This document shows, piece after piece, positions 867 through 55,117 of a stretch of DNA of 64,000 bases. Below the pieces are notes generated by a model that was not told the DNA's origin, ran no database searches, and worked only from the letters and a program-made list of their open reading frames with translations. Position numbers and translations under genes: made by a program. The stretch comes from Acetobacteraceae bacterium (lineage in GTDB: Bacteria > Pseudomonadota > Alphaproteobacteria > Acetobacterales > Acetobacteraceae), in NCBI GenBank assembly GCA_027487675.1, contig JAIYDD010000189.1, positions 21,914 to 85,913 of the forward strand. The letters run 5' to 3'. Numbering within the stretch: the stretch's first letter is position 1; each line of letters begins with the position of its first letter.

Positions 867-1223
867 TCACGGGATGCCTTCGGGGAAGTCGTGCGTGCCG
901 TCCGCGCGCAGCGTCAGCCGCGTGGCCGACAGCACGGCCGAGACCGGCAGCGCGCCGTAGAGATGCGGGAACAGGCCGGGGCGGCTGCCGCCCGACGCCG
1001 GTTCGAAGCGCAGCGCCGCGCCGAGCCGCGCGACATCGGCCTCCACCAGCCACAGGTCGGGCTCGCCGCGGCGGTGCTTGGCGGCGCTGGCGCGGAGCTG
1101 CGCGGCGGTGGAGAAATGCAGGAAGCCGTCGCGCGCATCGTCGGCGCTGCCGCGGTATTCGCCGCGCGCTTCCGCGGTCCGCCAGTCGGCGCCGCGGACC
1201 AGGGTGTAGACGCTGCGTTCCAT
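867..1223 (-). CDS. DUF952 family protein
   Basis: 118 aa; YTLV...W...GxYxGSxxDxxDGFLHFSTAAQL and DLWLVEAD motifs. Confidence 0.85.
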   Translation of the reverse strand: MERSVYTLVRGADWRTAEARGEYRGSADDARDGFLHFSTAAQLRASAAKHRRGEPDLWLVEADVARLGAALRFEPASGGSRPGLFPHLYGALPVSAVLSATRLTLRADGTHDFPEGIP

Positions 1224-1250: not shown

Positions 1251-1697
1251 TCAGTCCAGCAGGCGGTAGAAGACAAGCCCGCCGATCTCGGCGGTGGCGA
1301 CGCGGCCGATCGCCCAGCGCGGCAGCGCATCGGCCGGGTGGTAGTGCGTGGCGCCGCCGGTCGGGTCGGGCAGCGCGCCGGCGGCGGCGCGCTGCGCCAC
1401 GCGGCGGCAGACCGCCAGCGCCGCGTCGCCCGCCGCGTCCATCTCCGCGATGGCGCGCCGGCGCGGGCTGGCGGGATGCCAGCAGCCGAACTGGAAGGGC
1501 GCGCGGCAGACGCCGGCGATGCCCTGGCCGAGGTGGCCCGGCCCCCCGGCGCCGGCGGCCAGGCGCACGCGCGTCATCACCACGCTCGCCACCGCTTCCA
1601 TCGCGCGGGCGGTGCGGAAGCCGGCCTCGCCCCAGAGGGTGAGCGCCAGGATCTCCCGCGCATCGGCGGCGCGCGGGGCGTGCAGCGCCGCGCTCAT
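1251..1697 (-). CDS. SleB-type cell wall hydrolase (phage endolysin position)
   Basis: Start MSAALHAPRA at 1697; GEAGFRTARAMEAVASVVMTRV, FQFGCW and ATHYHPADALPRWA motifs; last gene of the late cluster. Confidence 0.85.
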   Translation of the reverse strand: MSAALHAPRAADAREILALTLWGEAGFRTARAMEAVASVVMTRVRLAAGAGGPGHLGQGIAGVCRAPFQFGCWHPASPRRRAIAEMDAAGDAALAVCRRVAQRAAAGALPDPTGGATHYHPADALPRWAIGRVATAEIGGLVFYRLLD

Positions 1698-2050
1698 CGG
1701 CCGCCCTCCGCGTCGCCGCGCGGGCCGAAGCCGATATGGCGCGGCCCCAGCGCCTGGGCGGAGACGGCGGCGGCGGCGGTGGCGGCGCTGCTGACCTCGT
1801 CGAGCTTCTCCTCGATGCGGACCAGGTGCAGCGACAGGCGCTGGTCCAGGTCGCGGATCAGCGACAGCGGCACATAGGTGCGCGCCACCTCCAGCTTGAA
1901 TTCCGCCAGGTCGTCGCGCGGCGACGCGGCGGGCGGGGCCGGGCGCTGCGCCAGGTCGCGGCGCAGCAGCTGCATCATCCAGATGACGATGATGGCCAGC
2001 GGCGCATCCGCCAGCGCGGCGAGCAGTTGCGGGGGGAGTTCTGGAAGCAT
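1694..2050 (-). CDS. Holin-like small membrane protein
   Basis: MLPELPPQLLAALADAPLAIIVIWMMQLLRRD..., one TM plus coiled coil; overlaps the start of the SleB gene; T7 gp17.5-like position. ORF can extend to 2119. Confidence 0.55.
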   Translation of the reverse strand: MLPELPPQLLAALADAPLAIIVIWMMQLLRRDLAQRPAPPAASPRDDLAEFKLEVARTYVPLSLIRDLDQRLSLHLVRIEEKLDEVSSAATAAAAVSAQALGPRHIGFGPRGDAEGGR

Positions 2051-2117
2051 CGGTGACACTCCTTGAACGGGTGGCCCTGCGGCCCCCATCTGCGGCGCCG
2101 AGGACAGCGACGACCGC

Positions 2118-2333
2118 ATGTGGAACGAGCCCTATCTGGAAACCTGCTGCCGGTCGGCGCTGCACCGGCTGACGCTGGTCTGTGCCGCGGGCCGGCCCGC
2201 CGGGCTGAAGGACGGGCCTTGCCTTGAGCGCCTGGCGGCCATGGGCCTGGCGCGGCTGCGCGGCGACGGGCGCTTCGAGATCACGCCGGCCGGCGAAGCG
2301 CGGCATGGCAGCGAGATCCTGAAGCTGCCCTGA
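2118..2333 (+). CDS. Small putative winged-helix protein on the opposite strand inside the phage cluster
   Basis: 71 aa; CLERLAAMGLARLRGDGRFEITPAGEARHGSEIL resembles a wHTH. Confidence 0.5.
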   Translation: MWNEPYLETCCRSALHRLTLVCAAGRPAGLKDGPCLERLAAMGLARLRGDGRFEITPAGEARHGSEILKLP

Positions 2334-2345
2334 CCGCGCCCGCGG

Positions 2346-3782
2346 TCAGAGCCCGCGCCAGGGCAGCATGCCGGCCGGACGCGGCGGCAGCGTCGGCAGC
2401 CTGACCGGCTCGGCCAGCAGGCAGCCTGCCACCGCATCCAGCGCATCGTCGCGCAGGCCGCGCGCATCGGGGCGCCATTCCGCCATTTCCTGCGCGAAGC
2501 GCGTGCGGAAGACGCTGTCATGCGCCGAGAGGCGGCGCGCGGCGAGCACCGGATCGAGCGCGGCCAGGATGCGCTGCGCCTTGGGCACGTGGCTGGTGAT
2601 CTCCGCCACCGTGCAGCCGCTGCCGGCCTGCGACAGCGCCTGGCGCAGCAGCGCGGGCAGGAACCTGCCGAGGCCGTTGGTCTCTACGCGCACCACCGGC
2701 AGCAGCAGGTCGCGTGCGATGGCGGCGACCGTGCGGCATTGCTGGGTGGCCGGGTCCTCCTCGACGTCGTCGCGGTGGGTCAGCCAGGCCAGGCGGTGCA
2801 GGTAGTGCCGGCCCTCGGCATCGGCATAGGTGGCGGCCAGCACGCTGCCGTCGCCGGTGCCCGGGCGGCCGAAGGCCGGGTCCCACCAGCCGCCGCCGGA
2901 GACGATGCGCTTGCCCATCAGCGTCAGCACGCCGCGGCCATTCGCCTCGCGGTAGTCGGGCTCGGCGGCGTAGCGGGCGATCAGCGCGGGATCGAGCCGC
3001 GCGGCTTCCTCGGCGACGCGTTCCAGCAGCATCTGGCGGCGGAAGGCCAGCGGGCCGACGCGGGCGCGCAGCTTCTGCACCGCTTCGGGCGGGAAGCGTT
3101 CGGGCCAGGCGCCGCGGCCTTCGGCATCCAGCAGCGGGATCACCAGGCGGCGATAGCCGGCCAGGAAGGCCTCCGCGTCGTCGGCGTAGAGGCTGTCCGC
3201 GCAATGCGGGGTGCCGACATAGAGGATGCCGCCGCCGGGGACGAGGACGAATTCGGCCTCCGTCAGCCTCTCCCGCAGCTCGGCGCGCTTGGCGGGCGTG
3301 TCGCAATTGCCGGCGACCTCGACATCGTCGCAGATGACCAGGTCGGCGCGCGCGCCGGTGATGTTGCCGCCGATGCCGGCGGCCAGCATCGACGCATCGC
3401 GCAGCACCGCCTCGCGCGCGACCGTGAAGCGATCGGACGCCCAGCCGCCCTCGCCATAGTCCGGCACCAGCGCGCCGCAGAGCGGGTGGCGGCCTAGGAT
3501 GCGGCGGACATTCGCCACCATCCGCGTGGCCAGCGCATGGTCGGCGGCCAGCACCAGGATGCGCGTCTCCGGCGCGCGATACAGCCGCCAGGCGCAGTAG
3601 AGCCCGACGAGGGTGGACTTGCCGCAGCCGCGGAAGGCCATCAGCAGCAGGCGGCGATCGCCATCCTCGACGCGGCCTTCCAGCCAGCGCAGCACGCGGC
3701 GGTGCACCGCGGGTGTGGCCAGGTTCGCCTGGCGGTTCCAGATCCAGGCGAATTCCAGCAGGTCGGCGGGGCGTTCGGTCAC
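2346..3782 (-). CDS. Phage terminase large subunit
   Basis: 478 aa; Walker A FRGCGKST, Walker B ADLVICDDVE, C-terminal acidic nuclease-like motifs. Confidence 0.9.
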   Translation of the reverse strand: MTERPADLLEFAWIWNRQANLATPAVHRRVLRWLEGRVEDGDRRLLLMAFRGCGKSTLVGLYCAWRLYRAPETRILVLAADHALATRMVANVRRILGRHPLCGALVPDYGEGGWASDRFTVAREAVLRDASMLAAGIGGNITGARADLVICDDVEVAGNCDTPAKRAELRERLTEAEFVLVPGGGILYVGTPHCADSLYADDAEAFLAGYRRLVIPLLDAEGRGAWPERFPPEAVQKLRARVGPLAFRRQMLLERVAEEAARLDPALIARYAAEPDYREANGRGVLTLMGKRIVSGGGWWDPAFGRPGTGDGSVLAATYADAEGRHYLHRLAWLTHRDDVEEDPATQQCRTVAAIARDLLLPVVRVETNGLGRFLPALLRQALSQAGSGCTVAEITSHVPKAQRILAALDPVLAARRLSAHDSVFRTRFAQEMAEWRPDARGLRDDALDAVAGCLLAEPVRLPTLPPRPAGMLPWRGL

Positions 3783-4078
3783 TTGCCCTCTCCCGCCGCC
3801 ATGCGCGCGCGGCAGTCTTCCAGCACCGCGTCGGTGGTGGCCTCGATCGCCTCGGGCGTGGCTTCGCCGGCGGCGAGCGCGGCGAGGTCCACGAGATGCG
3901 CGAGCGCGGCGCGCGCGGCGGCGTAGCGGGCGGTGAAGGCCTTCGGGTCGGGCGCGTTGTCGCCGCCGGCGGCGAGGAAATCGAGGTATTCCTCCGCCAC
4001 GCGTTCCATCGCCAGCTCGATCGCCTCGCGCGGGATCGGCAGGGGGGGCGGCGGGGCCGCCCGGCGTTCGCGCTTCAT
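3779..4078 (-). CDS. Putative terminase small subunit
   Basis: 99 aa helical protein, start MKRERRAAPP at 4078, immediately upstream of TerL with overlap; assigned by position. Confidence 0.5.
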   Translation of the reverse strand: MKRERRAAPPPPLPIPREAIELAMERVAEEYLDFLAAGGDNAPDPKAFTARYAAARAALAHLVDLAALAAGEATPEAIEATTDAVLEDCRARMAAGEGK

Positions 4079-6360
4079 GCCTTCACCACGCGCACGCGCA
4101 CCGTGCCGGCGCCGAGGTCGAGCGCGGCGGTGTGGCGGTTCCAGGCGGTGACGGTGACGAGGTCCTGCGCGCCGATATTGGCCAGGAAGACGACGCCGGT
4201 GGTGGACAGCGAGAAGGCCGCCTGCACGAAGTCGCCCGGCCGCGCGCCGGGCACGGCGACGGAGGTCTGCGCGCTGGCGCCCGCATTGATCGAGGGCGGG
4301 TCCCAGGGCGCTTCCGCCACGATCTCCCGCACGCCGTGGCGCAGGTCCGGCAGGCCGTAGAGCAGGGCGGGCGCGTGGCGGGGATCGCAGCTGAGGCGCA
4401 TGGCGCGCAGCTCGTAGTCGCGGGAGAGGCGGGCGACGCCGATCACGGCGTAGCCGACGGATGCCGAAAGGCGCACGGCCTGCAGGCGCGTCAGCGTCGC
4501 GTCCTCCATGTCCGCCGCGCCCTGCCACCACTTGGCGCTGGCGTTCCAGACGACGGACTGGCCGGAGGCGAGGACGTGCTGGCCGGTGGCGTCGGTCAGC
4601 AGGTTCATCTGGTGGTCGAAGGTCATCACCATCAGCCGCGGCGCTTCGGCATCCAGCGCGATGGCGAAGTCCTTGCACTGCCGCGCATCAACCACGAAAC
4701 CGAGCGCGCGGCCGCCGGTCAGCGTCACGCCGCGATCGGTCAGCAGCAGCGCATCGAGCGCGGGGAAGCAGAATTGCTGCAGGGTGGTCGGGTCGCCCAT
4801 GACGTTGGAGGACAGCACCGCGAGCCGGTCGAAGCCGGTCTCGCTCGCGTTCCAGCGGATCGCGGCGGCGCGCAGGCTGGGGACGGAGGCGACTTCCCGC
4901 GTCGCCTCCACATGCGGCGCGGCCTGGTGCAGCGCGCGCACCACGCCGCCGAGGCGCGTGGCGGTGGCGGTGTGCTCGATCTCCACCTGGTAGGCCTGGC
5001 TGGCCCAGGCGACCTCGTAGAGATGGTCCTGCGCGCCGGCGGTGTGGCGCGCGACGGGGCCGGTGCAGCCTTCCATGCGCAGCGCTCGGCCGAGGATGGC
5101 GCGGCTGTTCACCTCGCAGAGGAAGGGGATGCCGACGATGCCGGGCTTGTCGCGCGCGTTCAGCTCGAAGTTCGGGCCGTCGAAGACGTGGCGGTTGTGC
5201 GCGACATAGGCGCCGGGGGCGGCGGAGAGACGGATGCCGAAGCGGTCCTTGGTGGGGTGCAGCGTGCTGCCCACCGCGAAGTGGCCGCCATAGTAGCGGA
5301 TCGAGGTGTTCCACGCCGCCGCGGTGGCCGCATGCACGTCGAGGCCGATGCGGTTGTTCACGATGCGGTTGAGGATCAGCGTCGTGTCCTCGAAGCCGCG
5401 GCCGTCGCCCATGGTGCGGATGCCGATGGTGAAGCCGGCGATCTCGCGCAGCTCGACCACGCTGGCGTCGAGGTTGCGGAGCAGCAGGCCGAGATCGGCC
5501 TCGTTCTCCCAGTCCGACTGGGTGGCGCGCAGCACGGTCAGGCCGGTGAGCAGCTTGCGCGCGTTGCGCGCGGTGCCGCCATCGCCGATGGTCAGCGCCG
5601 TCTGCCCCGCCGGGCCCGCATAGACGATGGCGCCGCGCATGACGAGGCCGGCAGCCGCGCCCGGCAGCGTCAGCGGCTGTGTGGTGCGGAAGCTGCCCTC
5701 GCCGATGAACAGCGTCTTGCCGGAGGCGGCGGCGGCGTTCATCGCGGCCTGCAGCGCGGGGCCGTCATCCGTGGTGGCATCGCCGCGCGCGCCGAAATCC
5801 CGCGCGGAGAGGCGCTCTGCCATCTTGTCCTCGACCGTGCGCGGCACGGCGCCGGGGAAGGGGGAGGTCAGCAGGCCGCTGTCGCGCGGGAAGGCGGTGA
5901 CGTCGCCGGCGCTGTCGAAGCCGAGCAGCCGGTTGGCGCGCACGCCGCGCGCGGGCAGCACCAGGCTGCCGCCGAGCTCGCCGGGATCCTGGCGGATGGC
6001 CGAGCCGATCTCGTCGCGCTGTTCCTGCAGCACCGCGACCAGGCGATCGAGCTCGTCGTTCAGCGTGCGCGCGCGCAGCACGCCGTTGTCCTGGAAGTCG
6101 CTGTTGCGCTCCACGCGCAGCCGCCGGCGCAGCGTGACGCGGCTGCCGGTGGCGGGGGGCGCGGAGAGGGTGACGCTGCCGCCTTCGCTCTGCCCGGCGC
6201 CGGCCACGGCGAAGCCGCCGGCGACGGTGACGCCATCGATGCGCAGCTCGATGTCCTGGGCGTCGAAGACGGGGAAGGGGAAGGGGAAGTCGGTGCGGGC
6301 GCCGTCGGCCACGTATTGCACGCGCGGCGCGACATCGCCGATGCGGATGTGCTCGGCCAT
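4075..6360 (-). CDS. Phage tail fibre/tailspike (T7 fibre-like N-terminus plus pectate-lyase beta-helix)
   Basis: MAEHIRIGDVAPRVQYVADGARTDFPFPFPVFDAQDIELRIDG; DFGARGDATTDDGPALQAAMNAA beta-helix start. Confidence 0.85.
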   Translation of the reverse strand: MAEHIRIGDVAPRVQYVADGARTDFPFPFPVFDAQDIELRIDGVTVAGGFAVAGAGQSEGGSVTLSAPPATGSRVTLRRRLRVERNSDFQDNGVLRARTLNDELDRLVAVLQEQRDEIGSAIRQDPGELGGSLVLPARGVRANRLLGFDSAGDVTAFPRDSGLLTSPFPGAVPRTVEDKMAERLSARDFGARGDATTDDGPALQAAMNAAAASGKTLFIGEGSFRTTQPLTLPGAAAGLVMRGAIVYAGPAGQTALTIGDGGTARNARKLLTGLTVLRATQSDWENEADLGLLLRNLDASVVELREIAGFTIGIRTMGDGRGFEDTTLILNRIVNNRIGLDVHAATAAAWNTSIRYYGGHFAVGSTLHPTKDRFGIRLSAAPGAYVAHNRHVFDGPNFELNARDKPGIVGIPFLCEVNSRAILGRALRMEGCTGPVARHTAGAQDHLYEVAWASQAYQVEIEHTATATRLGGVVRALHQAAPHVEATREVASVPSLRAAAIRWNASETGFDRLAVLSSNVMGDPTTLQQFCFPALDALLLTDRGVTLTGGRALGFVVDARQCKDFAIALDAEAPRLMVMTFDHQMNLLTDATGQHVLASGQSVVWNASAKWWQGAADMEDATLTRLQAVRLSASVGYAVIGVARLSRDYELRAMRLSCDPRHAPALLYGLPDLRHGVREIVAEAPWDPPSINAGASAQTSVAVPGARPGDFVQAAFSLSTTGVVFLANIGAQDLVTVTAWNRHTAALDLGAGTVRVRVVKA

Positions 6361-6458
6361 CGGGGCCTCCGGTGGGGTGGGTTTTCTGTCGAGGATGGCG
6401 CGTCGCGTGGCGATCGCGCCGGATCGGGTGCGCGGCGGCTGAAGGTGTCGCGGGGGGG

Positions 6459-6625
6459 GGCTGCCCTCCCGCACCCACCCGCCAGGGTCGGTCGCCGAGG
6501 GCGGCGGACGAGTTTCCTGGACCTTCCCAAGACATTCGGCGCAACGAAATCGGGGAGGTGCAGGAACCTCAGCTTCCTGCCGGGGTGCCCGAGGGGCAGA
6601 GCCCCTCGGACCCTCTCTTCGCTTT
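6459..6625. repeat. Intergenic hairpin repeat family A, copy 1
   Basis: Shares ctgccctcccgcacccacccgccag, tttcctggaccttccc, ggggaggtgcaggaac-tcag-ttcctgccggggtgc and cgaggggc-gagcccctcg with 43843-43995. Confidence 0.85.
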
Positions 6626-6650
6626 CGCGACGCTCCGCGACGCGCGCGGA

Positions 6651-7058
6651 TCAGTCCAGAAGGTTGCGCAGCGCGCCATCGAAGCTGCGCCCGGCGCGCA
6701 GCCAGGCGGACAGCGTGCCGTCCTGGTTCAGCAGGCTGCGGCGGCCGGCGGAAAGACGCGCGGCGAAGACCGCGTCGCTGTCCGATTGCGCGGCTTCCGC
6801 ATCGCGGCGGATGCCGCTGGCCAGCGCGGCGGCCGAGCCTTCGTCCGGCGCGACGCCGCCGGCGGCCAGCCGCGCGCGTGTGGAGGCGATGGTGCCGGCC
6901 AGCCGCGCATCGCGCGCGCGCTTCTCGGCCGCCTGCTGCACGGCCAGCTGCTGCGCGCGCGCCGCGTCCTGGGCGCGGGCGGCCGCGTTCTGCCGCTGGG
7001 AGGCGACGAGCGTCGCGCCGGTGCCGATCAGGCTGACGATGGGGGCGAGTTGGGCCAT
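6651..7058 (-). CDS. Internal virion protein gp14-like
   Basis: 135 aa Ala/Gln-rich, start MAQLAPIVSLIGTG; located after tail tubular B as in T7-like phages. Confidence 0.55.
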   Translation of the reverse strand: MAQLAPIVSLIGTGATLVASQRQNAAARAQDAARAQQLAVQQAAEKRARDARLAGTIASTRARLAAGGVAPDEGSAAALASGIRRDAEAAQSDSDAVFAARLSAGRRSLLNQDGTLSAWLRAGRSFDGALRNLLD

Positions 7059-8938
7059 CACGCGGTCGTCCTTGTGTCCGTGGTGACGGAGAGCAGCGTC
7101 AGCGGCAGCGGCACCTCGCCCTCCACGCGCCAGAGCGGCGCCATCGCGTCGCGCCGCCAGCCGAGGCCGCGCAGCATCACGTCGCCGGTGAAGGGCGCGG
7201 GCGGCGCATCGAGCAGCGCGGTGTCGAGGCGGCGGAAGGCCACCGGCTGCACGCCGCGGCCGAGATCCACCTCGAAGGCCGGCGTCGCCAGCAGGCGGAA
7301 GGTGGCGGAGACGAGGCGCAGCGGCGCCGCCAGCATGCCCTGCGCGGTGCCGAGGATGGGCGGCAGCGGCTCGATCACGTGGCGGAAGGCGAGCCCCGCC
7401 TGCACCTCGCGCGCCGGCGGATCCACCGCGATGCGGCCATCGGCGACCAGCGCCGCGGCACGCGGCGCGCCATCGGCCAGCACGCCCACCGTCTCGCCCT
7501 GCAGGTGGTCGAGCCCGGTCCAGTCGTCGCGCGGCTCGGCCGCGGTGCCGGACAGCGCGGCATCCAGGCCGAGCGTGGCGTCGAAGCGTTCCAGCCGGTG
7601 CGTGCCGTCGCGTTCCACCACGGCGAAGACGCGGCCCTCGGTCTCGGCCACGGCGCGGAAGGCGCCCTGCGTCTCCTGCCGCGTCCAGGCGATCACCTGC
7701 TCGGCGCGGTAGAGCGTCAGCGTCGCCAGCGCGCCATCCGCCATCACCACATGCAGCAGCCGCTGCACCTGGTCGTAGGCCATGGCCACGGGGGTCGCGA
7801 CCAGGTGGCGCGCGACCAGCGCTAGGTCGTTGGCCTGGTAGGCATCGGCGACGTCGGTATAGGCGAATTCGTGCACGGCGCGGCCGCTGCGCGCGACGAA
7901 GACGGTGGCGCCATCGACATCGACGGGCGGCACCATGCGGTCCACCTGGCTGCCGACGCGGGTCTGGCGGTGCAGCTGGATCGAGGCGGGCGTCAGCGGA
8001 TCGCCGGTGACCATCCATTCGGCGCCCGAGGTGAAGACCTGCAGGTGGCGGCCCGAGAAGACGGCGCGGATGGCGTTCACCTGGTCCGACATCAGCGCGA
8101 ACTCGATGCCTTCGTCGTCGAGGCCGGTGCCCGGATCGAAATCCGCGAAGTCGCCGGTGCGCGACAGCCAGAGCCGGTTCGGCAGGTCGCGCGAGCCGCC
8201 GAGCACCAGCCGGTCCTGGTGGAAGCAGGCGGAGACCGGCCAGCCGCGGGCACCGCCGAAGGCGCTCTCCTCCGGGTCCTGCACGGCGGTCGTGCCGCCC
8301 AGCGTGTCCTCGACCGTCGCGGTCGCGCTACGCGGGCCGGCCACCGCGGTGACGCGCACGCGCTTCGCGCCGAGCAGGAAGCGCGCGCCGACATGGCCCG
8401 GCACGAACAGGTCCGCGCTGGCGGAGAGCGTGATGGTGCCGGTGGTGGCGGAGGGCGTCACCGCGACGCCGCGCGCGAAGCCGTGGAAGGGTTCCCGCAG
8501 GAAGACGAAGTCCGACAGCGTCCAGTCGGCATGGCCGGTGCGCGTGACGCGCTTCGGCGCCATCTCCGGGTGGAACAGCAGCAGCGTGTCGGCGCTCTGC
8601 GTGAAGGCGATCTGCGGCAGCATCGCCGCCGTCCAGGGCGCGGCGAGCGAGGCGACCTCGGCATCGCCGAGGAAGACCTGCAGCCGGCCCGCGGTCAGCG
8701 CCAGAAGGTAGGTCTGCTCGGTGTTGAACTCGAAGGGCAGCAGGCGGGCGGGGCCGGAGAGCGTCGCGACGTGGCGCAGGCCCGGGCGGCGCGTCACGCC
8801 GCCGGTCGGCTGGATCACCACGTTGCGCAGGCGCCGCGCGCCGTTCTCGAAGGCGCGGAGGTCGATGCGGCCGTGCAGCTCCGGCGCCAGCTCGCCGGCG
8901 GCGAAGCTGGTCTTGATGCGGCGGTTCGCGACGGACAT
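7058..8938 (-). CDS. Tail tubular protein B-like (gp12-type) phage protein
   Basis: 626 aa; TSFAAGELAPELHGRIDLRAFENGARRLRNVVIQPTGGVTRRPGLRHVA signature. Confidence 0.85.
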   Translation of the reverse strand: MSVANRRIKTSFAAGELAPELHGRIDLRAFENGARRLRNVVIQPTGGVTRRPGLRHVATLSGPARLLPFEFNTEQTYLLALTAGRLQVFLGDAEVASLAAPWTAAMLPQIAFTQSADTLLLFHPEMAPKRVTRTGHADWTLSDFVFLREPFHGFARGVAVTPSATTGTITLSASADLFVPGHVGARFLLGAKRVRVTAVAGPRSATATVEDTLGGTTAVQDPEESAFGGARGWPVSACFHQDRLVLGGSRDLPNRLWLSRTGDFADFDPGTGLDDEGIEFALMSDQVNAIRAVFSGRHLQVFTSGAEWMVTGDPLTPASIQLHRQTRVGSQVDRMVPPVDVDGATVFVARSGRAVHEFAYTDVADAYQANDLALVARHLVATPVAMAYDQVQRLLHVVMADGALATLTLYRAEQVIAWTRQETQGAFRAVAETEGRVFAVVERDGTHRLERFDATLGLDAALSGTAAEPRDDWTGLDHLQGETVGVLADGAPRAAALVADGRIAVDPPAREVQAGLAFRHVIEPLPPILGTAQGMLAAPLRLVSATFRLLATPAFEVDLGRGVQPVAFRRLDTALLDAPPAPFTGDVMLRGLGWRRDAMAPLWRVEGEVPLPLTLLSVTTDTRTTA

Positions 8939-8942
8939 CGGC

Positions 8943-9512
8943 TCAGCCCCGCACGTCGACCAGCGGGAAACCTTCGAGCGCCATCGGCGTGGCCTGCTGG
9001 CTGTCGATCAGCCGGGCCTGGCGCAGCTCGGATTCGGCGAGGCGGAACAGCACCTCGGCGCGCGACGCGCTTTCGGTCAGCGGCAGGCAGAACTCCGCGG
9101 CGAGCCGCGCGACCAGGCAGGCGGCGAAGAAGGGCGGGAAGGCGCTCTCCTCCGGGCGGAAGACGTAGGTGATGGTGACGGCCTCGGCATCGGCCAGCAG
9201 GCGGCCGTCCTGGATGCGATAGGGCGTGCCGCGGCCGCGGCCCTGCGTGCCGGCCGACAGCACGCGGAGGAACCCCGGCGGCAGCTGGAAGGCATGCGCG
9301 TATTCGGCATGCGGCACGGCGGAGAGGCGCGGCAGCGCGGACTGGCCGGTGGCGAAGGTCCAGGGATGGGCGGAGAGCAGGGCGTCGCGCGTCGCGGGGT
9401 AGAGGTTGGCCGCGACCTCGGCCTCCGCGGTGCCTTCCTGCAGCGAGGCGATCGGCTGCGCGCCGATGCGCAGCAGCGCGCGCGAGCAGAGCGCAAGCGG
9501 GGTGAGGGACAT
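8943..9512 (-). CDS. Tail tubular protein A-like (gp11-type) phage protein
   Basis: 189 aa; LCSRALLRIGAQPIASLQEGTAEAEVAANLYPATRDALLSAHPW. Confidence 0.85.
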   Translation of the reverse strand: MSLTPLALCSRALLRIGAQPIASLQEGTAEAEVAANLYPATRDALLSAHPWTFATGQSALPRLSAVPHAEYAHAFQLPPGFLRVLSAGTQGRGRGTPYRIQDGRLLADAEAVTITYVFRPEESAFPPFFAACLVARLAAEFCLPLTESASRAEVLFRLAESELRQARLIDSQQATPMALEGFPLVDVRG

Positions 9513-9569
9513 GGTGGGGGGGTTCCGCTGACGGGCGACGTTGAGGGAGCGTGGGGTGGGGGAGACGCG

Positions 9570-9612
9570 AAGGCCCCCACCCCGACCCTCCCCCGCAACT
9601 GCGGGAGAGGGG
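9570..9612. repeat. Intergenic repeat family C (cccccaccccgaccctcccccgc...), copy 1
   Basis: Same core as the copies at 52990-53122. Confidence 0.7.
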
Positions 9613-9625
9613 GAAGTGGTGCGCG

Positions 9626-9799
9626 CTATTCGAATGCGCGCATCCGCACCTATTCGAAGGCGCGCATCCGCGCGCTATTCGAACGCGCGCATCCGCACGC
9701 TATTCGAACGCGCGCATGCGCAAGCTATTCGAACGCGCGCATGCGCACGCTATTCGAACGCGCGCATGCGCACGCTATTCGAACGCGCGCATGCGCACG
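9626..9799. repeat. Tandem array of seven 25-bp units (one is 24 bp), CTATTCGAACGCGCGCATGCGCACG
   Basis: Counted directly: tattcgaa at 9627, 9651, 9676, 9701, 9726, 9751, 9776; last copy overlaps the capsid stop codon. Confidence 0.97.
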
Positions 9800-10614
9800 A
9801 CGCCGGTGTCGTCCACCAGCACCGCGCCCTGGCTCATCATGTTCGCGACGAAATGCGCCGCGCGGTCGCCGTGCCAGGTGACGTCGGTCTCCACCTCCGC
9901 CGCCGCGGCGTGGCCGATCGCGGTGCGGTGGTAGAAGTAGCAGAAGCGCAGGTTGCCGGTCTTGGTCAGGCCGGAATGCGGCATCCACAGCGCGCCGAGC
10001 CAGCGCTTCGCCTGCGTGCCCTTCCAGGGCAGCTCGTCGGAGCCGACATAGTCGCTGTTGGCGAACTCGTCGATCGCCAGCAGGTCGCTCCACTGCTTCC
10101 AGCCGACGACGGCGAAGCGGTTGCCGTCATCCGGCACGTCGGCGGCGCCCATCATCTCGAAGGCGAGCAGCACCTTGGCCTTGGTCAGGCGGTCGCTGTC
10201 CGTGGTGCCGGCCGCCGTGCCCAGCGCTTCCCGCGTCGCGGTGTCGAGGGCGGCGATGATCAGCTCATCGGTCTTGCGGCCCAGCGCATAGGCGCCGGCA
10301 TTGGCGACGACCTGGCGCTCGTCGAGGCTCGCCTTCAGCTCGTCGAGCCGGTCGATCCAGTCGCCGGCATAGTAGTCCTGCAGCACGCATTCCACCTGCG
10401 CGTGCTCGAGGTTCATCACGGGGACGGAGCCGTGGCGGCTCTTCGCCGCGGCCATGCCCTTGCCGACCTTGGGGAAGAAGGTGCTGCTGCCGGCGACGCC
10501 GGTCTTGCTGCGCACCGTCGGGCGCAGCTTGGAGCCCTGGCGCTGGTAGGCCTCGTGCACCTCGGCCTGGAACTGCTTGACGAAGACGGCATCGATCTGG
10601 GTGCTGGCGGGCAT
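9775..10614 (-). CDS. Major capsid protein
   Basis: 279 aa, MPASTQIDAVFVKQFQAEVHEAYQRQGSKLRPTV...; between scaffold and tail tubular genes. Confidence 0.85.
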   Translation of the reverse strand: MPASTQIDAVFVKQFQAEVHEAYQRQGSKLRPTVRSKTGVAGSSTFFPKVGKGMAAAKSRHGSVPVMNLEHAQVECVLQDYYAGDWIDRLDELKASLDERQVVANAGAYALGRKTDELIIAALDTATREALGTAAGTTDSDRLTKAKVLLAFEMMGAADVPDDGNRFAVVGWKQWSDLLAIDEFANSDYVGSDELPWKGTQAKRWLGALWMPHSGLTKTGNLRFCYFYHRTAIGHAAAAEVETDVTWHGDRAAHFVANMMSQGAVLVDDTGVVRMRAFE

Positions 10615-10753
10615 CGTGGCCCTCCTCTCTGTGGTGTCGGGTTGCGTCGGGATGGCCGCCGCATCCGGTTGCCCCTCGGGGGCCGGTGCGGGCGGGCGGC
10701 CGCGCGGGCCCGGGGCGTGCGGGTTGCCGGCGGCGATCGGTGGAAAGGGGGGG

Positions 10754-10884
10754 GCGGGGCGGGTGGGGGCCGCATGCGCGGCCTGCGCCACCCGCCCCGC
10801 ATCCGCCGCGCGCGGGGGAGGAGGCGCGCGGCGGGGCCGGCCGGGCGCCGCGGCGGGGCCGAAGCCCCGGGGCAGCCCGGCCGG
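10754..10884. other. Three consecutive strong hairpins between scaffold and capsid genes
   Basis: Perfect stems 10754-10766/10788-10800 (13 bp), 10803-10813/10824-10834 (11 bp), 10837-10846/10875-10884 (10 bp). Confidence 0.8.
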
Positions 10885-10893
10885 TGTCTCGGG

Positions 10894-11628
10894 TCAGCCG
10901 CCGACGAGGCGCCGGAAACCCTCGGTCACGCGGCGGACGAATTCGGGCTCCCGCGCGCGCCAGTAGCGCGGGTCGCGCATCATCCGGCGCAGCTCCGCCT
11001 CGTCCGGCGTGCCGTCCTGCTCGGCGTCGCGGGCGATGGCGGGCTCCTTCGCCTCCATCATCCGGTGCATGGCGAGCACGCCCTCGGCGGTGGTCGACAG
11101 CGCGGCGAACACCGCGTCCGGCAGACTGGCGCGGCCCCAGGCGGAGAGCTGCTGCGCGATGCGGCGGTAGCGGTCGGGGCCGCCGAAATGCTGCGCCAGC
11201 TTCTCGCGCTGGCGGTCCGCCTCGAACTCGGCGGCGGCTTCCGCGACCAGCGGCAGCAGGCGCTCGGCCGCCAAGTCGTAGACCAGCTGCGCCTGGCGCG
11301 GCGTGAAGCCGGCCTCGTGCAGGCGCTGGTTCACCTCCGGGTCGGGCGCGCACATCTCGTGCTTCGGGCAGATCTCGTAGCCGTCGGGGCCGTCGGGGAT
11401 GCCGAGCATGCGGCGCCAGCGCTGGCGATCCTCCTCCGGCGCGTCCTCGGCCGGCGGCGCGGCGCGGCGCGAGAGGGCGCGTTCCAGCTCCAGGTAGGAT
11501 TTCAGCAGCGCGTCGACGCGCAGCGCATTCGTCGCCGGGTCCCAGAATTTTTCGGGGACATGCGGCGGGCGGGTCGCGGTCGCGGGGGTGATCGCGTCGG
11601 TGTCGGGGGCGAGAAGATCCTCGGGCAT
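10894..11628 (-). CDS. Phage scaffold/capsid assembly protein
   Basis: Start MPEDLLAPDTDAITP at 11628; acidic, helical, between portal and capsid. Confidence 0.7.
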   Translation of the reverse strand: MPEDLLAPDTDAITPATATRPPHVPEKFWDPATNALRVDALLKSYLELERALSRRAAPPAEDAPEEDRQRWRRMLGIPDGPDGYEICPKHEMCAPDPEVNQRLHEAGFTPRQAQLVYDLAAERLLPLVAEAAAEFEADRQREKLAQHFGGPDRYRRIAQQLSAWGRASLPDAVFAALSTTAEGVLAMHRMMEAKEPAIARDAEQDGTPDEAELRRMMRDPRYWRAREPEFVRRVTEGFRRLVGG

Positions 11629-11636
11629 GCCGAAGC

Positions 11637-13049
11637 TCACTCCTGGTTCGGGGTTGTCGTGAGGGGGCGCAGGATCTCGGGCGGCGCGCCCAGCGTGCGG
11701 GCCAGCCAGCGCGCGGCCGCGCCGGCATCCAGTGTCGCCGCCGCCTCTCCGCCCAGGCTGCCGGCCGCCTGCAGGAACAGCAGCGTGTCGGCGGCATCCG
11801 CGCGCGCCTGCACGCGCGCCAGCGGCGAGGCGTAGACCAGCCGCGCCTCCCGCCCATCCAGCACCAGCGGCGGGATCTCGCCGCGCCGGCGCAGGATGGA
11901 CAGGCACCGCGCGACCAGCGGCGTCAGCAGCTCGGCCTGCAGCCGGCCATAGGCGGCGCCGAGCAGCCGGGCGGCGGCGGCGCTGCGTTCCAGCACCTCG
12001 GTCGCCGTCATCGCCGCCTTGTCGGACGCGGCGATGCGGTCAGCCAGCAGCGCGCCGCGGATGCGCGCGCGCAAATCCTGCAGCACGATCTGCGAGACGT
12101 CGAAATTCCCCGGCGCCGCCAGCGGCGTGAGGCCGGAGGAGCCGGCGGCCTTCGGGATGATCGCACCCGGCACCAGGCGGATGGTCGCCGGGTTCAGCAC
12201 GCCGTCATCCTCGGCCTGCCAGATCCCCGTCGCGGCGATGGAGGCGTTCTTCAGGATCAGCTCGACCACCTTGTTGGCGGTGCGGATGTCCGGCAGGGCC
12301 TTCTGGACGGGGCTGCGGCCATAGGTCTCGCCGGGCAGCTTCAGCCAGCGGAAGGCGACGAAGGGGTTCTCGGCGAAGACGCCGGAGGAGAGCAGCTCGG
12401 GCGCGGCGCCCTCGCCGTCCAGCACGGCGGCGTGGCGGTGGCCGGCGCGGCGGTCGGGCCAGGCGGCCTCCACCACCCGCAGGCGCCGCGTCTCGTCCTG
12501 CCCCTTGGGCACAGGCGCGCCGGGCCAGCGGGCGCGCAGCTCCGCCGGCGTCGGGCGCAGGACGCGGAAGACGGTGTCGAGCCGGCCGGTCGCACCTTCC
12601 TCCAGCACCGCCTCGCGCAGCGGGATGGCGCGGAAGGTGAGCGCGGAGGGCTCGCCCGCCGGCGCTTCCTCCACCAGCAGCACGCCGGTGCCGGCGACCA
12701 CCAGGTCCAGGAAGGCCTGGTGCAGTTCCAGGGTGAAGTTGCTGCGGTCCAGGTGGCCCTGCAGGGTCTCGGCGGCGTCGTCCAGCGCGCGGACCAGCGC
12801 CTCGGCCTCCGCGCCCTCGGCGGCGGCGCGGGTGGGGGCCAGGCCGAACCAGCGCGACCAGGGCGGCGCCAGCTCCGCCAGCAGGGAAGCGGCGAGCTGT
12901 TCGGCCGCGTCCGCCGCGGTGGCGTCGAACAGCGGCGCGGCATGCGGCGCGGGCAGGGCGTGGTCGTAGCAATCCTGCCAGGTGGCCTCCAGCGGCCGGC
13001 GGCGTTCGGCGGCGCGGGCCTGGCGGGCCAGGATTTCCTCGGGGGTCAT
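11637..13049 (-). CDS. Head-tail connector/portal protein (T7 gp8-like)
   Basis: 471 codons; RRRPLEATWQDCYDHALP...ETYGRSPVQKALPDIRTANKVVELILKNASIAATGIW...ASDKAAMTATEVLER. Confidence 0.9.
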   Translation of the reverse strand: MTPEEILARQARAAERRRPLEATWQDCYDHALPAPHAAPLFDATAADAAEQLAASLLAELAPPWSRWFGLAPTRAAAEGAEAEALVRALDDAAETLQGHLDRSNFTLELHQAFLDLVVAGTGVLLVEEAPAGEPSALTFRAIPLREAVLEEGATGRLDTVFRVLRPTPAELRARWPGAPVPKGQDETRRLRVVEAAWPDRRAGHRHAAVLDGEGAAPELLSSGVFAENPFVAFRWLKLPGETYGRSPVQKALPDIRTANKVVELILKNASIAATGIWQAEDDGVLNPATIRLVPGAIIPKAAGSSGLTPLAAPGNFDVSQIVLQDLRARIRGALLADRIAASDKAAMTATEVLERSAAAARLLGAAYGRLQAELLTPLVARCLSILRRRGEIPPLVLDGREARLVYASPLARVQARADAADTLLFLQAAGSLGGEAAATLDAGAAARWLARTLGAPPEILRPLTTTPNQE

Positions 13050-13057
13050 CGCGCCTG

Positions 13058-13270
13058 TCACTCCCCGAGCAGCGTCTTGCGCAGCGCGAAGCCCGGCACC
13101 GGGTCCAGCACGCCGCGCGCCTGGGTGGCGATGGTGCCGGAGAGCCCCCGCCGCGCGCGGTCGAGCGCGCGCTGGCGGGCGGCTTCCTCCGCCGCCTGCG
13201 GCGCGGCGGCAGGCGTGGCGGGCGGGGCCACGACCGGGTCCGGCTTCGGCGCCGAGAACAGGCCACCCAT
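13058..13270 (-). CDS. Small phage structural-cluster protein
   Basis: 70 aa MGGLFSAPKPDPVVAPP...; just upstream of portal. Confidence 0.6.
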   Translation of the reverse strand: MGGLFSAPKPDPVVAPPATPAAAPQAAEEAARQRALDRARRGLSGTIATQARGVLDPVPGFALRKTLLGE

Positions 13271-13427
13271 GCAGGCTCCTCCCAGGGCTTTGCGTGCCGC
13301 GGCCGGCATGGCGCGGGGCAGGCGATCGGAACGGGGTGCCTCCCGCTGGGCCGGCGATCGACGCCCTTCGTCGTGCCCGCCTTCGGCGTGCACACTCGGG
13401 ACGATCGCGGGCCAGGCCCGGAAAAGG

Positions 13428-13463
13428 CGAAGGCCCGCCCGGGGGGATCCGGGCGGGCCTTCG
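13428..13463 (-). terminator. Rho-independent terminator-like hairpin inside the late operon
   Basis: 15-bp perfect stem cgaaggcccgcccgg/ccgggcgggccttcg, 6-nt loop; minus strand followed by CCTTTTCC. Confidence 0.7.
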
Positions 13464-13532
13464 AGTTGGGCCGGGGAGGGAGACAACCGCGGGGCGCACC
13501 TCGCCCCGTGGCAGGGGTTTGATAGCCGGGGC

Positions 13533-13982
13533 TCAGCGCCGAGTCAAGAACATTTTCCTAAATTCACCACGATTGTCGTCCGCCCCGCCGCCCAGCGCGC
13601 GGAAAAGTCCATGCGGCGTGACGGCGAAGGGCGCATCCGGGCCGAGCAGGGCGCGGCAGAAGGCGACGCAGGTGAAGGGCGACAGCGGCGGCAACCAGCG
13701 CGCGGCCGGCGCGCCGGGGACGAAGGGGCCGAGCACGGCGATGCCGGCGCGCGCCCAGAAACCCGGCAGGTCGAAGCCCGCCGGCACCGGCAGGCGCACC
13801 ACCAGCAGCCGGCCGGAGAGCGGTTCCAGCACCGTCCAGCCGGCCTCGTCGCGCAGCGCCGCCAGGCAATGGCGGAAGCCCGGGCGGAGCAGGCGCAGCC
13901 AGGGCTGGTCCGCCTCTCCCCCGAAGCCGAGCCATAGCAGCTGGCCGGCGGCGTCGGCCGCGCGGCGATGGGCCGGGCGCAT
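13533..13982 (-). CDS. Hypothetical protein of the phage cluster
   Basis: 149 aa, start MRPAHRRAADAAG; overlaps the end of the upstream ORF. Confidence 0.65.
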   Translation of the reverse strand: MRPAHRRAADAAGQLLWLGFGGEADQPWLRLLRPGFRHCLAALRDEAGWTVLEPLSGRLLVVRLPVPAGFDLPGFWARAGIAVLGPFVPGAPAARWLPPLSPFTCVAFCRALLGPDAPFAVTPHGLFRALGGGADDNRGEFRKMFLTRR

Positions 13983-14416
13983 CACGGGCGGGCGCCCGGG
14001 AAGGCCAGCACCTCCGCGCCCTCGGGCGGCAGGGTCATGCCGCGCGGCGGGCCGGCGACGATGCCCTTGGCGCGCAACGGGAAATCCAGGCGGTCCATCG
14101 CTTCGCGCCACAGCCGCAGGTCGCCGCGCTCGGCGGGGATCTTCGGGCTGGGGGCGGTGGCGCGCTCGCCCCAGATGCGCAGGATGCGGGCATGGGCGAG
14201 CTCGATCCGGCGCTGGCGATAGAGGCGATCGAGCACCTTGACCACGTCGTCGGGCTCGCAGGGGCGGATGGCGCCGCCGCGGGCGGCGGCAAGGCGCGCG
14301 CCGTCGCGGCGGGCGGTCAGCGCGGCCATGGTCCAGAACCAGGCGTCCTCGGCGCAGGAGAACGGCTCGGCCTTGGCGAGGCTGGCGAGGATGGCGGGGG
14401 CGCGGGCGGTGGGCAT
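13982..14416 (-). CDS. Hypothetical protein, first gene of the phage operon
   Basis: 144 aa, start MPTARAPAILASLAKAE; directly downstream of the GAAC-N7-GAAC box. Confidence 0.65.
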   Translation of the reverse strand: MPTARAPAILASLAKAEPFSCAEDAWFWTMAALTARRDGARLAAARGGAIRPCEPDDVVKVLDRLYRQRRIELAHARILRIWGERATAPSPKIPAERGDLRLWREAMDRLDFPLRAKGIVAGPPRGMTLPPEGAEVLAFPGARP

Positions 14417-14445: not shown

Positions 14446-14460
14446 GAACAAAACAGGAAC
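14446..14460. promoter_or_regulatory. LexA-type SOS box (GAAC-AAAACAG-GAAC)
   Basis: Matches the alphaproteobacterial LexA consensus GTTCN7GTTC; in the divergent intergenic region. Confidence 0.8.
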
Positions 14461-14597
14461 ATCCTAATAGAACCACTCTCCACCCCAGGTTGCAAGGGTT
14501 ATGTTCCTATTGCATCGCGACTCGAAACCTAGGATGTCATGCCCAGGCAAATGCGCTACAGGACGGCCGATTCGGGGCCCGGCAGAGGACCAGACCC

Positions 14598-15242
14598 ATG
14601 CGGCACGAGGATGTGTGGCGGGCGATCGACGCGCTGGCGGCGGAGCACGGGCTGTCGCCCTCCGGGCTGGCGCGGCGGGCGGGGCTGGACGCGACCGCCT
14701 TCAACCCTTCCAAGCGGACCGGGCCGGATGGGCGGGCGCGCTGGCCTTCGACGGAAAGCGTGGCGAAGGTGCTGACCGCGACGGGCACGGCGATCGATGC
14801 CTTCGCGGCCCTGGTCAGCGGCCAGCCGGCCTTGCCGCGGGGCCGCGCGCAGGTGGCGCGGCGCATCCCGCTGATCGGCCTGGCGCAGGCGGGCGGCGAG
14901 GGGTTCTTCGATGATGGCGGCTACCCGGTGGGCGGCGGCTGGGACGAGATCTCGGTGCCCGACGTGCCGGACCCGCATGCCTATGGGCTGGAGATCAGCG
15001 GCGATTCGATGGAGCCGGTGTTCCGCGACGGGGACCTGGTGATCGTCTCGCCTTCCGCCCCCGTCCGCCGCGGCGACCGCGTGGTGGTGCGGACCCGGCG
15101 CGGGGAGGTGATGGCGAAGCAGCTGATGCGGCAATCGGCGCGGCGGGTGGAGCTGGCGAGCCTGAACCCGGCGCATCCGAACTACAGTTTTGGGTTGGAC
15201 GAGCTGGCCTTCATGCACAGGATCGTCTGGGCGAGCCAGTGA
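14598..15242 (+). CDS. HTH / S24 peptidase repressor (LexA/CI-like)
   Basis: 214 aa; N-terminal HTH, AQAG candidate cleavage site, GDSMEP Ser motif and C-terminal Lys region. Confidence 0.9.
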   Translation: MRHEDVWRAIDALAAEHGLSPSGLARRAGLDATAFNPSKRTGPDGRARWPSTESVAKVLTATGTAIDAFAALVSGQPALPRGRAQVARRIPLIGLAQAGGEGFFDDGGYPVGGGWDEISVPDVPDPHAYGLEISGDSMEPVFRDGDLVIVSPSAPVRRGDRVVVRTRRGEVMAKQLMRQSARRVELASLNPAHPNYSFGLDELAFMHRIVWASQ

Positions 15243-17105: not shown

Positions 17106-17111
17106 GGCAGC

Positions 17112-17173
17112 AGTTTGAGCCGAGTTTGACCCCAAACTCAAGTTTGTGGTCAAGATCAAACTCGCCTCAAACC
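17112..17173. promoter_or_regulatory. Operator-like inverted repeat built of AGTTTGA half-sites
   Basis: 19-bp arms gtttgagccgagtttgacc (17113-17131) and its complement at 17154-17172, 17/19 matched, with caaactcaagtttg at 17133-17146. Confidence 0.85.
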
Positions 17174-55102: not shown

Positions 55103-55117
55103 GTTCCTATTTTGTTC
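55103..55117. promoter_or_regulatory. LexA-type SOS box (GTTC-CTATTTT-GTTC)
   Basis: 14/15 identical to the reverse complement of 14446-14460; followed by TTGCTT-N17-ATAGCT. Confidence 0.8.

Follow-up and report, generated by a model that had tools for sequence, protein, structure and literature searches.

A vertically inherited T7-like structural and packaging cluster as a candidate gene transfer agent of Alphaproteobacteria

Can a compact run of podovirus late genes in a bacterial chromosome serve as a gene transfer agent (GTA)? To our knowledge, GTAs are known from few independent captures. The locus considered here belongs to an Acetobacteraceae bacterium (GTDB lineage Bacteria; Pseudomonadota; Alphaproteobacteria; Acetobacterales; Acetobacteraceae). 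The DNA analysed, hereafter the window, is a stretch of 64,000 nt from assembly GCA_027487675.1 (contig JAIYDD010000189.1, positions 21,914-85,913 of the forward strand).

Portal, scaffold, capsid, tail tubes A and B, tail spike, T7-type large terminase (TerL), holin-like protein and lysin are encoded on the minus strand between window positions 1251 and 14416 (Table 1). The main genes form a single run in which frames overlap or stand close together. A preliminary description had recognized this podovirus structural and packaging run, and matches to Pfam, PHROG and NCBIfam confirm all of its main genes; the NCBIfam TerL model NF033889 has a cut-off of 150 bits. The Walker A, Walker B and nuclease-type motifs attributed to TerL are conserved in 68-69 of 69 TerLs (the last as nuclease aspartates), and the structural and packaging genes are intact, in keeping with the claim that no frame is visibly broken. 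The proposed T7 late order applies to the structural run, which is similar, but the holin and lysin genes come after TerL, unlike in T7. Likewise, the genes do lie within 1251-14416, but the unit continues beyond it to a LexA box and a divergent S24 repressor gene. The small terminase candidate is placed by its position and a weak PHROG match, its identity being uncertain. The 138-aa protein at 6651-7067 has no family match in Pfam or PHROG, and its designation as gp14-like was abandoned.

Table 1. Features of the cluster and its borders, in window coordinates
Feature	Position	Strand	Evidence or remark
DUF952 gene, host flank	867..1223	-	PF06108 3.5e-25; directly adjoins S24 gene in cluster-less genomes
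SleB-type cell wall hydrolase (endolysin)	1251..1706	-	PF07486, phrog_938
Holin-like small protein (candidate)	1694..2119	-	phrog_29007 (no assigned function); adjoins lysin
Large terminase TerL, T7 type	2346..3782	-	phrog_38 1.5e-79; NF033889 403 bits
Small terminase candidate, poorly conserved	3779..4081	-	Position between fibre and TerL; weak phrog_31793, E 0.005
Tail spike: T7 fibre N-terminal domain and beta-helix (pectate-lyase-like) domain	4075..6372	-	PF03906, PF12708
138-aa protein	6651..7067	-	Conserved in most relatives
Tail tubular protein B (nozzle)	7058..8938	-	phrog_376 1.7e-147; solved nozzle 8ck1 1.4e-62
Tail tubular protein A	8943..9512	-	phrog_394 6.4e-45
Major capsid protein	9775..10614	-	PF19821 1.2e-80, phrog_3437
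Capsid assembly (scaffold) protein	10894..11637	-	PF05396 1.2e-16
Portal (head-tail connector)	11637..13055	-	PF12236 7.4e-116
Small protein adjoining portal	13058..13336	-	phrog_831 1.7e-06
orfX, part of cluster	13533..13937	-	RHC...TCVE motif; conserved across class
orfY, small all-helical protein, first gene of operon	13982..14416	-	Beside S24 even without structural genes
LexA (SOS) box GAACAAAACAGGAAC	14446..14460	+	GAAC-N7-GAAC motif
TTCCTA, putative S24-repressor half-site	14504..14509	+	Enriched near S24
Divergent LexA/CI-like repressor (HTH and S24 autopeptidase)	14598..15242	+	PF00717 5.5e-21

With the whole span from the S24 gene to the DUF952 gene accounted for, no replication or integration gene was found between the host flanks, as had been proposed, and the claim that the module cannot replicate itself is upheld by the same absence. 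Judged by a single-subunit RNA polymerase and replication genes, neither of which occurs between the flanks, the cluster falls outside the Autographiviridae. The 64-kb window is devoid of any tRNA, including the attachment-site tRNA said to be missing. The preliminary description had also raised the possibility of phage replication or integrase genes just left of position 1; no phage gene was found there, the eight genes tested in that 21.9 kb being host metabolic genes.

A mobile phage or phage satellite could nevertheless keep its replication genes elsewhere in the genome or borrow them from a helper, and T7-like podoviruses with related portals do exist. Members of the Autographiviridae, Pelagibacter phage Hodr and Methylophilales phage MEP301 share homologues of portal, scaffold, capsid, tail tubes, spike and TerL in similar order. 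The cluster differs from them in lacking RNA polymerase, replication genes and large internal virion proteins, and in its vertical descent and fixed site. In the portal tree, the isolated phages sit on long branches outside the carriers. A single clade of the 33 carriers was not rejected (AU p 0.16), although the tree does not show one, since an unverified fecal contig of 5 kb and two diverged carriers fall inside. No phage genome fell within the carrier clade in the collections searched, and searches of phage records and plasmids returned no close relative; the relatives in IMG/VR are pieces of 4-26 kb, which favours the GTA reading. Moreover, no integrase or att site was seen for the cluster, which occupies one orthologous site as one main copy per genome, follows the host tree and in some lineages has its genes scattered. 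Satellites typically lack most structural genes; the cluster has all of them. Such a mobile element is therefore very unlikely.

The distribution of the cluster is broad. All 15 species of the genus have it, as do about 80 of 300 species across the Acetobacteraceae; among 386 other Alphaproteobacteria it occurs in about 55, at portal identities of 44-62%, and gene order is preserved across more than 10 families. Carriers have it at the same site, between the S24 repressor gene and the DUF952 gene; in 9 of 20 genomes that lack it, these two genes are neighbours separated by 138-230 bp. Distances between clusters correlate with RpoB distances at 0.946, a value reached by none of 2000 permutations (maximum 0.42). 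The cluster tree shares 26 of 32 well-supported RpoB splits and recovers all 11 multi-species genera as monophyletic; seven supported cluster splits conflict with the species tree, itself drawn from the single gene RpoB, and count against the GTA reading. Taken together, class-wide presence, one main copy, RpoB congruence and a shared chromosomal site indicate vertical descent, the outcome sought by the tree-congruence check that the preliminary description had suggested. Its dN/dS check likewise gave low values. Purifying selection acts on the cluster genes (dN/dS 0.06-0.15), which are thus maintained, with median values of 0.06 for capsid and portal and 0.10 for TerL, compared with 0.07-0.12 for the flanking host genes.

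Could these be ordinary defective prophage remnants, conserved by chance? Viral contig collections do list them as prophage pieces, and decayed copies, named beforehand as possible counterevidence, occur in genus g45 and in genome G088. However, these are sporadic losses beside many intact copies, a pattern also seen in RcGTA, and core genes are full-length throughout in 47 of 58 loci. Purifying selection on every gene is unexpected of decay, as are RpoB congruence across families, a fixed site and a conserved SOS box. This already disfavoured explanation is scarcely credible. Domestication of the module, the earlier proposal, is by comparison strongly supported by sequence evidence: descent, selection, fixed site and a left flank free of phage genes.

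A promoter motif links the cluster to the SOS response. The promoter region carries the GAAC-N7-GAAC motif of the LexA regulon, and the same motif stands 105 bp upstream of lexA in the same genome. A LexA box precedes the cluster in 42 of 57 Acetobacteraceae loci (0.4 expected); it is absent from about a quarter of the loci in this family and from more than half of the others, which weighs against the GTA reading. Of 146 loci, 90 have TTCCTA/TAGGAA no more than 120 bp from the S24 gene (8 expected), and the S24 repressor retains its cleavage site and Ser/Lys dyad. In Caulobacter, the activators of CcGTA are held by RogA, a 213-aa LexA-like repressor reported to lack catalytic residues (PMC9632790). 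RogA and the S24 protein are alike in length and domains only, the latter having kept its catalytic residues, and the 64-kb window contains no GGAA-N4-TTCC, the RogA motif. Here, unlike in CcGTA, the repressor adjoins the structural genes and a LexA box is present.

These observations suggest how the cluster could work. LexA, bound at the box before orfY, would normally keep the operon off, probably together with the S24 repressor encoded next to it. Upon DNA damage, LexA would be released and the S24 protein is expected to cleave itself, switching on expression of the late operon in a fraction of cells. Portal, scaffold and capsid would form small procapsids, which TerL and a weak or non-specific small terminase may fill by the headful with any chromosomal DNA available. 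Tail tubes A and B and the spike would complete a short tail, after which holin and lysin would lyse the cell. Judging from its gene content, the cluster can probably build particles and fill them with DNA. The module, inherited with the chromosome, would be retained since transfer of genes or repair templates would benefit kin. It appears unable to spread alone, as it has no replication, integration or excision genes and is scattered in some lineages; portal and tail tube are there 56-135 kb apart with frames still open, and packaging of the whole locus is argued to be impossible in such genomes.

Vertical descent and selection would equally be expected of a PBSX-like domesticated killer, whose heads are filled with host DNA and which kills neighbours but delivers no genes. 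PBSX packages host DNA too, yet kills rather than transfers (PMC12946183). The cluster has no counterpart of the large T7 internal core proteins gp15 and gp16 (compare phage MEP301; the gap between tail tube B and fibre is about 490 bp), and poor DNA delivery without such ejection proteins would fit a killer, as would the beta-helix domain of the spike. In contrast, constraint is among the strongest on the catalytic residues of TerL, the portal and the capsid, although a killer needs no packaging motor, and the cluster contains no recognised immunity gene. A killer is thus an unlikely reading. Least probable of all is a domesticated particle with a non-transfer role, for instance delivering proteins or disposing of DNA during the SOS response. 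It draws on the conservation of orfX and orfY, which have no assigned function or fold: despite confident models (pLDDT 83.6 for orfX), neither gave a fold match, nor a sequence match to solved structures. Nothing beyond these two genes points to such a role, and the packaging genes are strongly constrained.

A domesticated T7-like podovirus module working as a GTA is quite probably the correct description. In the viriform sense (PMC9662315), the cluster has the capsid, portal, terminase and tail genes of a tailed-phage derivative, lacks autonomous replication and integration genes and evolves with the cellular genome. It shares with the RcGTA family (Rhodogtaviriformidae, including CcGTA) a domesticated tailed-phage structural cluster, an alphaproteobacterial host, vertical descent and the absence of replication genes, but RcGTA resembles siphoviruses and has a different gene set. 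The RcGTA marker PF13547 is absent from the genome studied here, which sets the cluster apart from RcGTA-like elements, and among 387 genomes the 55 strong cluster carriers and 36 PF13547 genomes do not overlap. A published survey counts no RcGTA-like cluster in the Acetobacterales, Azospirillales or Rhodospirillales (PMC6821227). BaGTA (Bartogtaviriformidae) is likewise a domesticated GTA of an alphaproteobacterium, a function that we infer from the genes in the present case. Known from Bartonella, it has an HK97-type capsid and requires a phage-derived replication origin (PMC9662315). The cluster, set apart from it by descriptions, has a PF19821 capsid, a T7-type TerL and no recognised origin or replication genes; by these family assignments it lacks the HK97-type capsid and BaGTA TerL homologues of BaGTA-like elements. 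FpGTA of Faecalibacterium is a structural operon of about 10 kb (PMC12946183, January 2026); compared by description, it belongs to one genus of Gram-positive hosts, whereas the cluster spans many alphaproteobacterial families. The phiGT1 study concerns other podovirus lineages, LUZ24- and Mx8-like (PMC10386132). No such element in Alphaproteobacteria is mentioned in the literature searched, outside which most subscription journals lie. Class-wide spread, orthologous site, SOS box, LexA-like repressor and non-overlap with RcGTA had no place in the preliminary description.

Vertical inheritance at the same spot in many, mostly RcGTA-less families makes the cluster a strong candidate for a kind of GTA that has gone unrecognised. 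On balance it is likely an ancient, SOS-linked podovirus-type GTA, independent of the RcGTA, BaGTA and BhGTA lineages, captured once early in Alphaproteobacteria between the S24 and DUF952 genes and serving lineages without RcGTA, very small genomes among them (Acetobacterales, Azospirillales, Rhodospirillales and others). Mitomycin-induced particles with random host DNA of ~10 kb were described for Azospirillum lipoferum and strain B510 by Boyer 2008, as related in PMC3899980, where their tentative assignment to other prophage regions is also given. Azospirillum species carry the cluster and its SOS box fits mitomycin induction, so that a link may hypothetically be drawn.

If this reading is true, the cluster would be a second class-wide alphaproteobacterial GTA, built from another virus type, and capture of particle genes would be both repeated and long-lasting. 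Pieces of it are listed as viruses in viral databases, thereby inflating virus counts. Two non-overlapping GTAs would become comparable within one class, and the SOS box makes testable the old question of whether particles are retained for DNA repair. For acetic acid bacteria, Azospirillum and magnetotactic bacteria, the cluster would be a source of gene exchange.

The portal-to-lysin set reported in the preliminary description is present as a single run on one strand, with all frames intact in this copy, and is preceded by three small conserved genes. The large terminase (TerL) is of the T7 type and the lysin of the SleB type; the ATPase and nuclease residues of TerL, described as kept, are retained in 68-69 of 69 homologues. 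The "gp14-like" label of the 138-aa protein is unsupported, while that of the small terminase is backed by position and a weak match and stays a candidate. Between the flanking genes, no replication, transcription or integration genes are found, as initially stated. Phage genes were also sought left of position 1, and the clear coding genes in the 21.9 kb outside the window, checked singly, are host genes (cyclase, oxidoreductase, ABC transporter and similar). The 25-bp repeat extends into the 3′ end of the capsid gene.

Features of the cluster and its surroundings (window coordinates)
Feature	Position	Strand	Content or location
Podovirus late-gene run	1251-14416	-	portal, scaffold, capsid, tail tubes A and B, 138-aa protein, spike, terS candidate, TerL, holin-like, lysin
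25-bp unit tandem repeat, 7 copies	9624-9799		between capsid and tail tube A genes
LexA-type box GAACAAAACAGGAAC	14446-14460		between S24 and first cluster gene
S24 repressor	14598-15242	divergent	right of cluster
AlbA/Schlafen-type gene	15321-17159	-	adjoins S24 repressor
Further LexA-type box GAACAAAATAGGAAC	55103-55117

In one genus, 56 kb separate the portal and tail tube B genes of one species and 135 kb those of a second; in another genome the gap is 65 kb, and the frames are open. This argues against a mobile phage, since gene sets scattered over 56-135 kb cannot travel as one virus genome in such lineages. The genomes with cluster genes scattered over these distances or onto separate contigs, with open frames, are G421, G524, G356 and G322; the portal gene of G356 is also split by ~17 kb, and thus not every copy is intact. 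The best 106 IMG/VR matches measure 4-26 kb and mostly consist of the cluster alone; that database enters these pieces as viral genomes (viral contigs L031-L056, L307-L386). In the portal tree, the isolated phages whose portals are related (Hodr, MEP301, Greip, YeP4, J2) sit on long branches outside the carriers, and the AU test does not reject a single carrier clade (p 0.16). MEP301 bears ~5 kb of internal virion protein genes between tail tube B and fibre, whereas the cluster has ~0.5 kb there. One human fecal sequence, an unverified "Bacteriophage sp." record of 5 kb (MT838907, locus L418), groups with the carriers and probably represents a fragment of this cluster from an alphaproteobacterium of the gut.

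Domestication, as first proposed, is well supported by independent lines and appears nearly certain. The suggested checks of tree congruence and dN/dS both came out in favor of vertical descent. Distances from six concatenated cluster proteins correlate at 0.946 with those of RpoB, a value reached in 0 of 2000 permutations (highest 0.42). The cluster tree shares 26 of 32 well-supported RpoB splits and recovers all 11 multi-species genera as monophyletic; seven supported cluster splits conflict with the single-gene RpoB tree. Capsid and portal have a median dN/dS of 0.06 and the other structural proteins 0.09-0.15; the host genes on the flanks give 0.07-0.12. In genus g45 some copies are decaying or partly deleted (L091, L113, L114, L112), and TerL is broken in genome G088.

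TerL is found in ~80 of 300 Acetobacteraceae species (single main copy each, 56-82% identity), and all 15 species of the source genus have the portal. Class-wide, ~55 of 386 sampled genomes, some as small as 0.9-1.4 Mb, carry the cluster at 44-62% identity, and gene order is identical over more than 10 families. Named carriers, from a search matching at least 522 stretches, include Azospirillum, Magnetospirillum, Caenispirillum, Defluviicoccus, Terasakiella and Micavibrio. In one genus with 0.9-Mb genomes, all three sampled species (G665, with locus L153; G374; G494) have diverged genes for portal and tail tube B. A distant T7-type TerL (30-36% identity), typically a single copy in each genome, occurs at L461:8195-9571 and in ~45 other Acetobacteraceae genomes; several genera that lack the cluster have it in every species sampled, and it is possibly another inherited element.

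In carriers from Acetobacteraceae and families f28, f50 and f129, the cluster sits between S24 and the host gene DUF952, with a median distance of 13.2 kb over 43 loci. Of 20 genomes with S24 but without the cluster, nine have S24 and DUF952 as immediate, divergently oriented neighbors, 138-230 bp apart; seven of these nine are among the 12 tested genomes that carry the RcGTA marker PF13547. Cluster-negative Acetobacteraceae retain S24 with adjacent orfY, the first operon gene, in 16 of 20 cases (L452-L471), which is consistent with the structural part having been lost within this family; orfY may form a regulatory pair with S24.

GAAC-N7-GAAC, the alphaproteobacterial LexA site, also occurs 105 bp upstream of lexA in the source genome, where it is enriched (79 sites vs 22 for the reversed pattern). 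Among Acetobacteraceae, 42 of 57 cluster loci are preceded by such a box, against an expectation of 0.4; for the other loci of the class the count is 6 of 16 (expected 0.24), and for the named loci 31 of 73 (expected 0.4). In 90 of 146 loci, against 8 expected, a second motif, TTCCTA/TAGGAA, is found no more than 120 bp from the start of S24; it also occurs near S24 in cluster-negative genomes, and is thus probably the repressor's own operator. In length and domains, the S24 protein resembles RogA, a LexA-like repressor of Caulobacter GTA activators (PMC9632790). The AlbA/Schlafen-type gene gives weak PADLOC matches only; it is present in none of the relatives' loci searched, and is therefore probably a recent insertion.

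PF13547 marks 36 of 387 genomes in the class sample and none of the 55 carriers among them, a lack of overlap (Fisher p 0.005; 5e-6 among S24-positive genomes) whose statistics ignore relatedness. A published survey counts no RcGTA-like cluster in Acetobacterales, Azospirillales or Rhodospirillales (PMC6821227). The cluster is neither an RcGTA nor a BaGTA, the latter set apart by protein family assignments.

DNA damage would relieve LexA and probably also the S24 repressor, which retains its cleavage site and Ser/Lys dyad. The operon would then be expressed; heads would form, TerL would load them with chromosomal DNA, and a short tail would be attached before host cell lysis. RcGTA DNA enters through the recipient's uptake machinery, and the missing internal core proteins suggest the same route here. 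The main rival is a PBSX-like killer particle. Judged by anatomy, function as a GTA is the best reading and a fairly probable one. In Azospirillum lipoferum and strain B510, mitomycin C induces the release of particles that carry ~10 kb pieces of random host DNA (Boyer 2008, as cited in PMC3899980); the authors of that study provisionally attributed them to other prophage regions, and the cluster is a new candidate source. If it is a GTA, it would represent a further independent GTA lineage.
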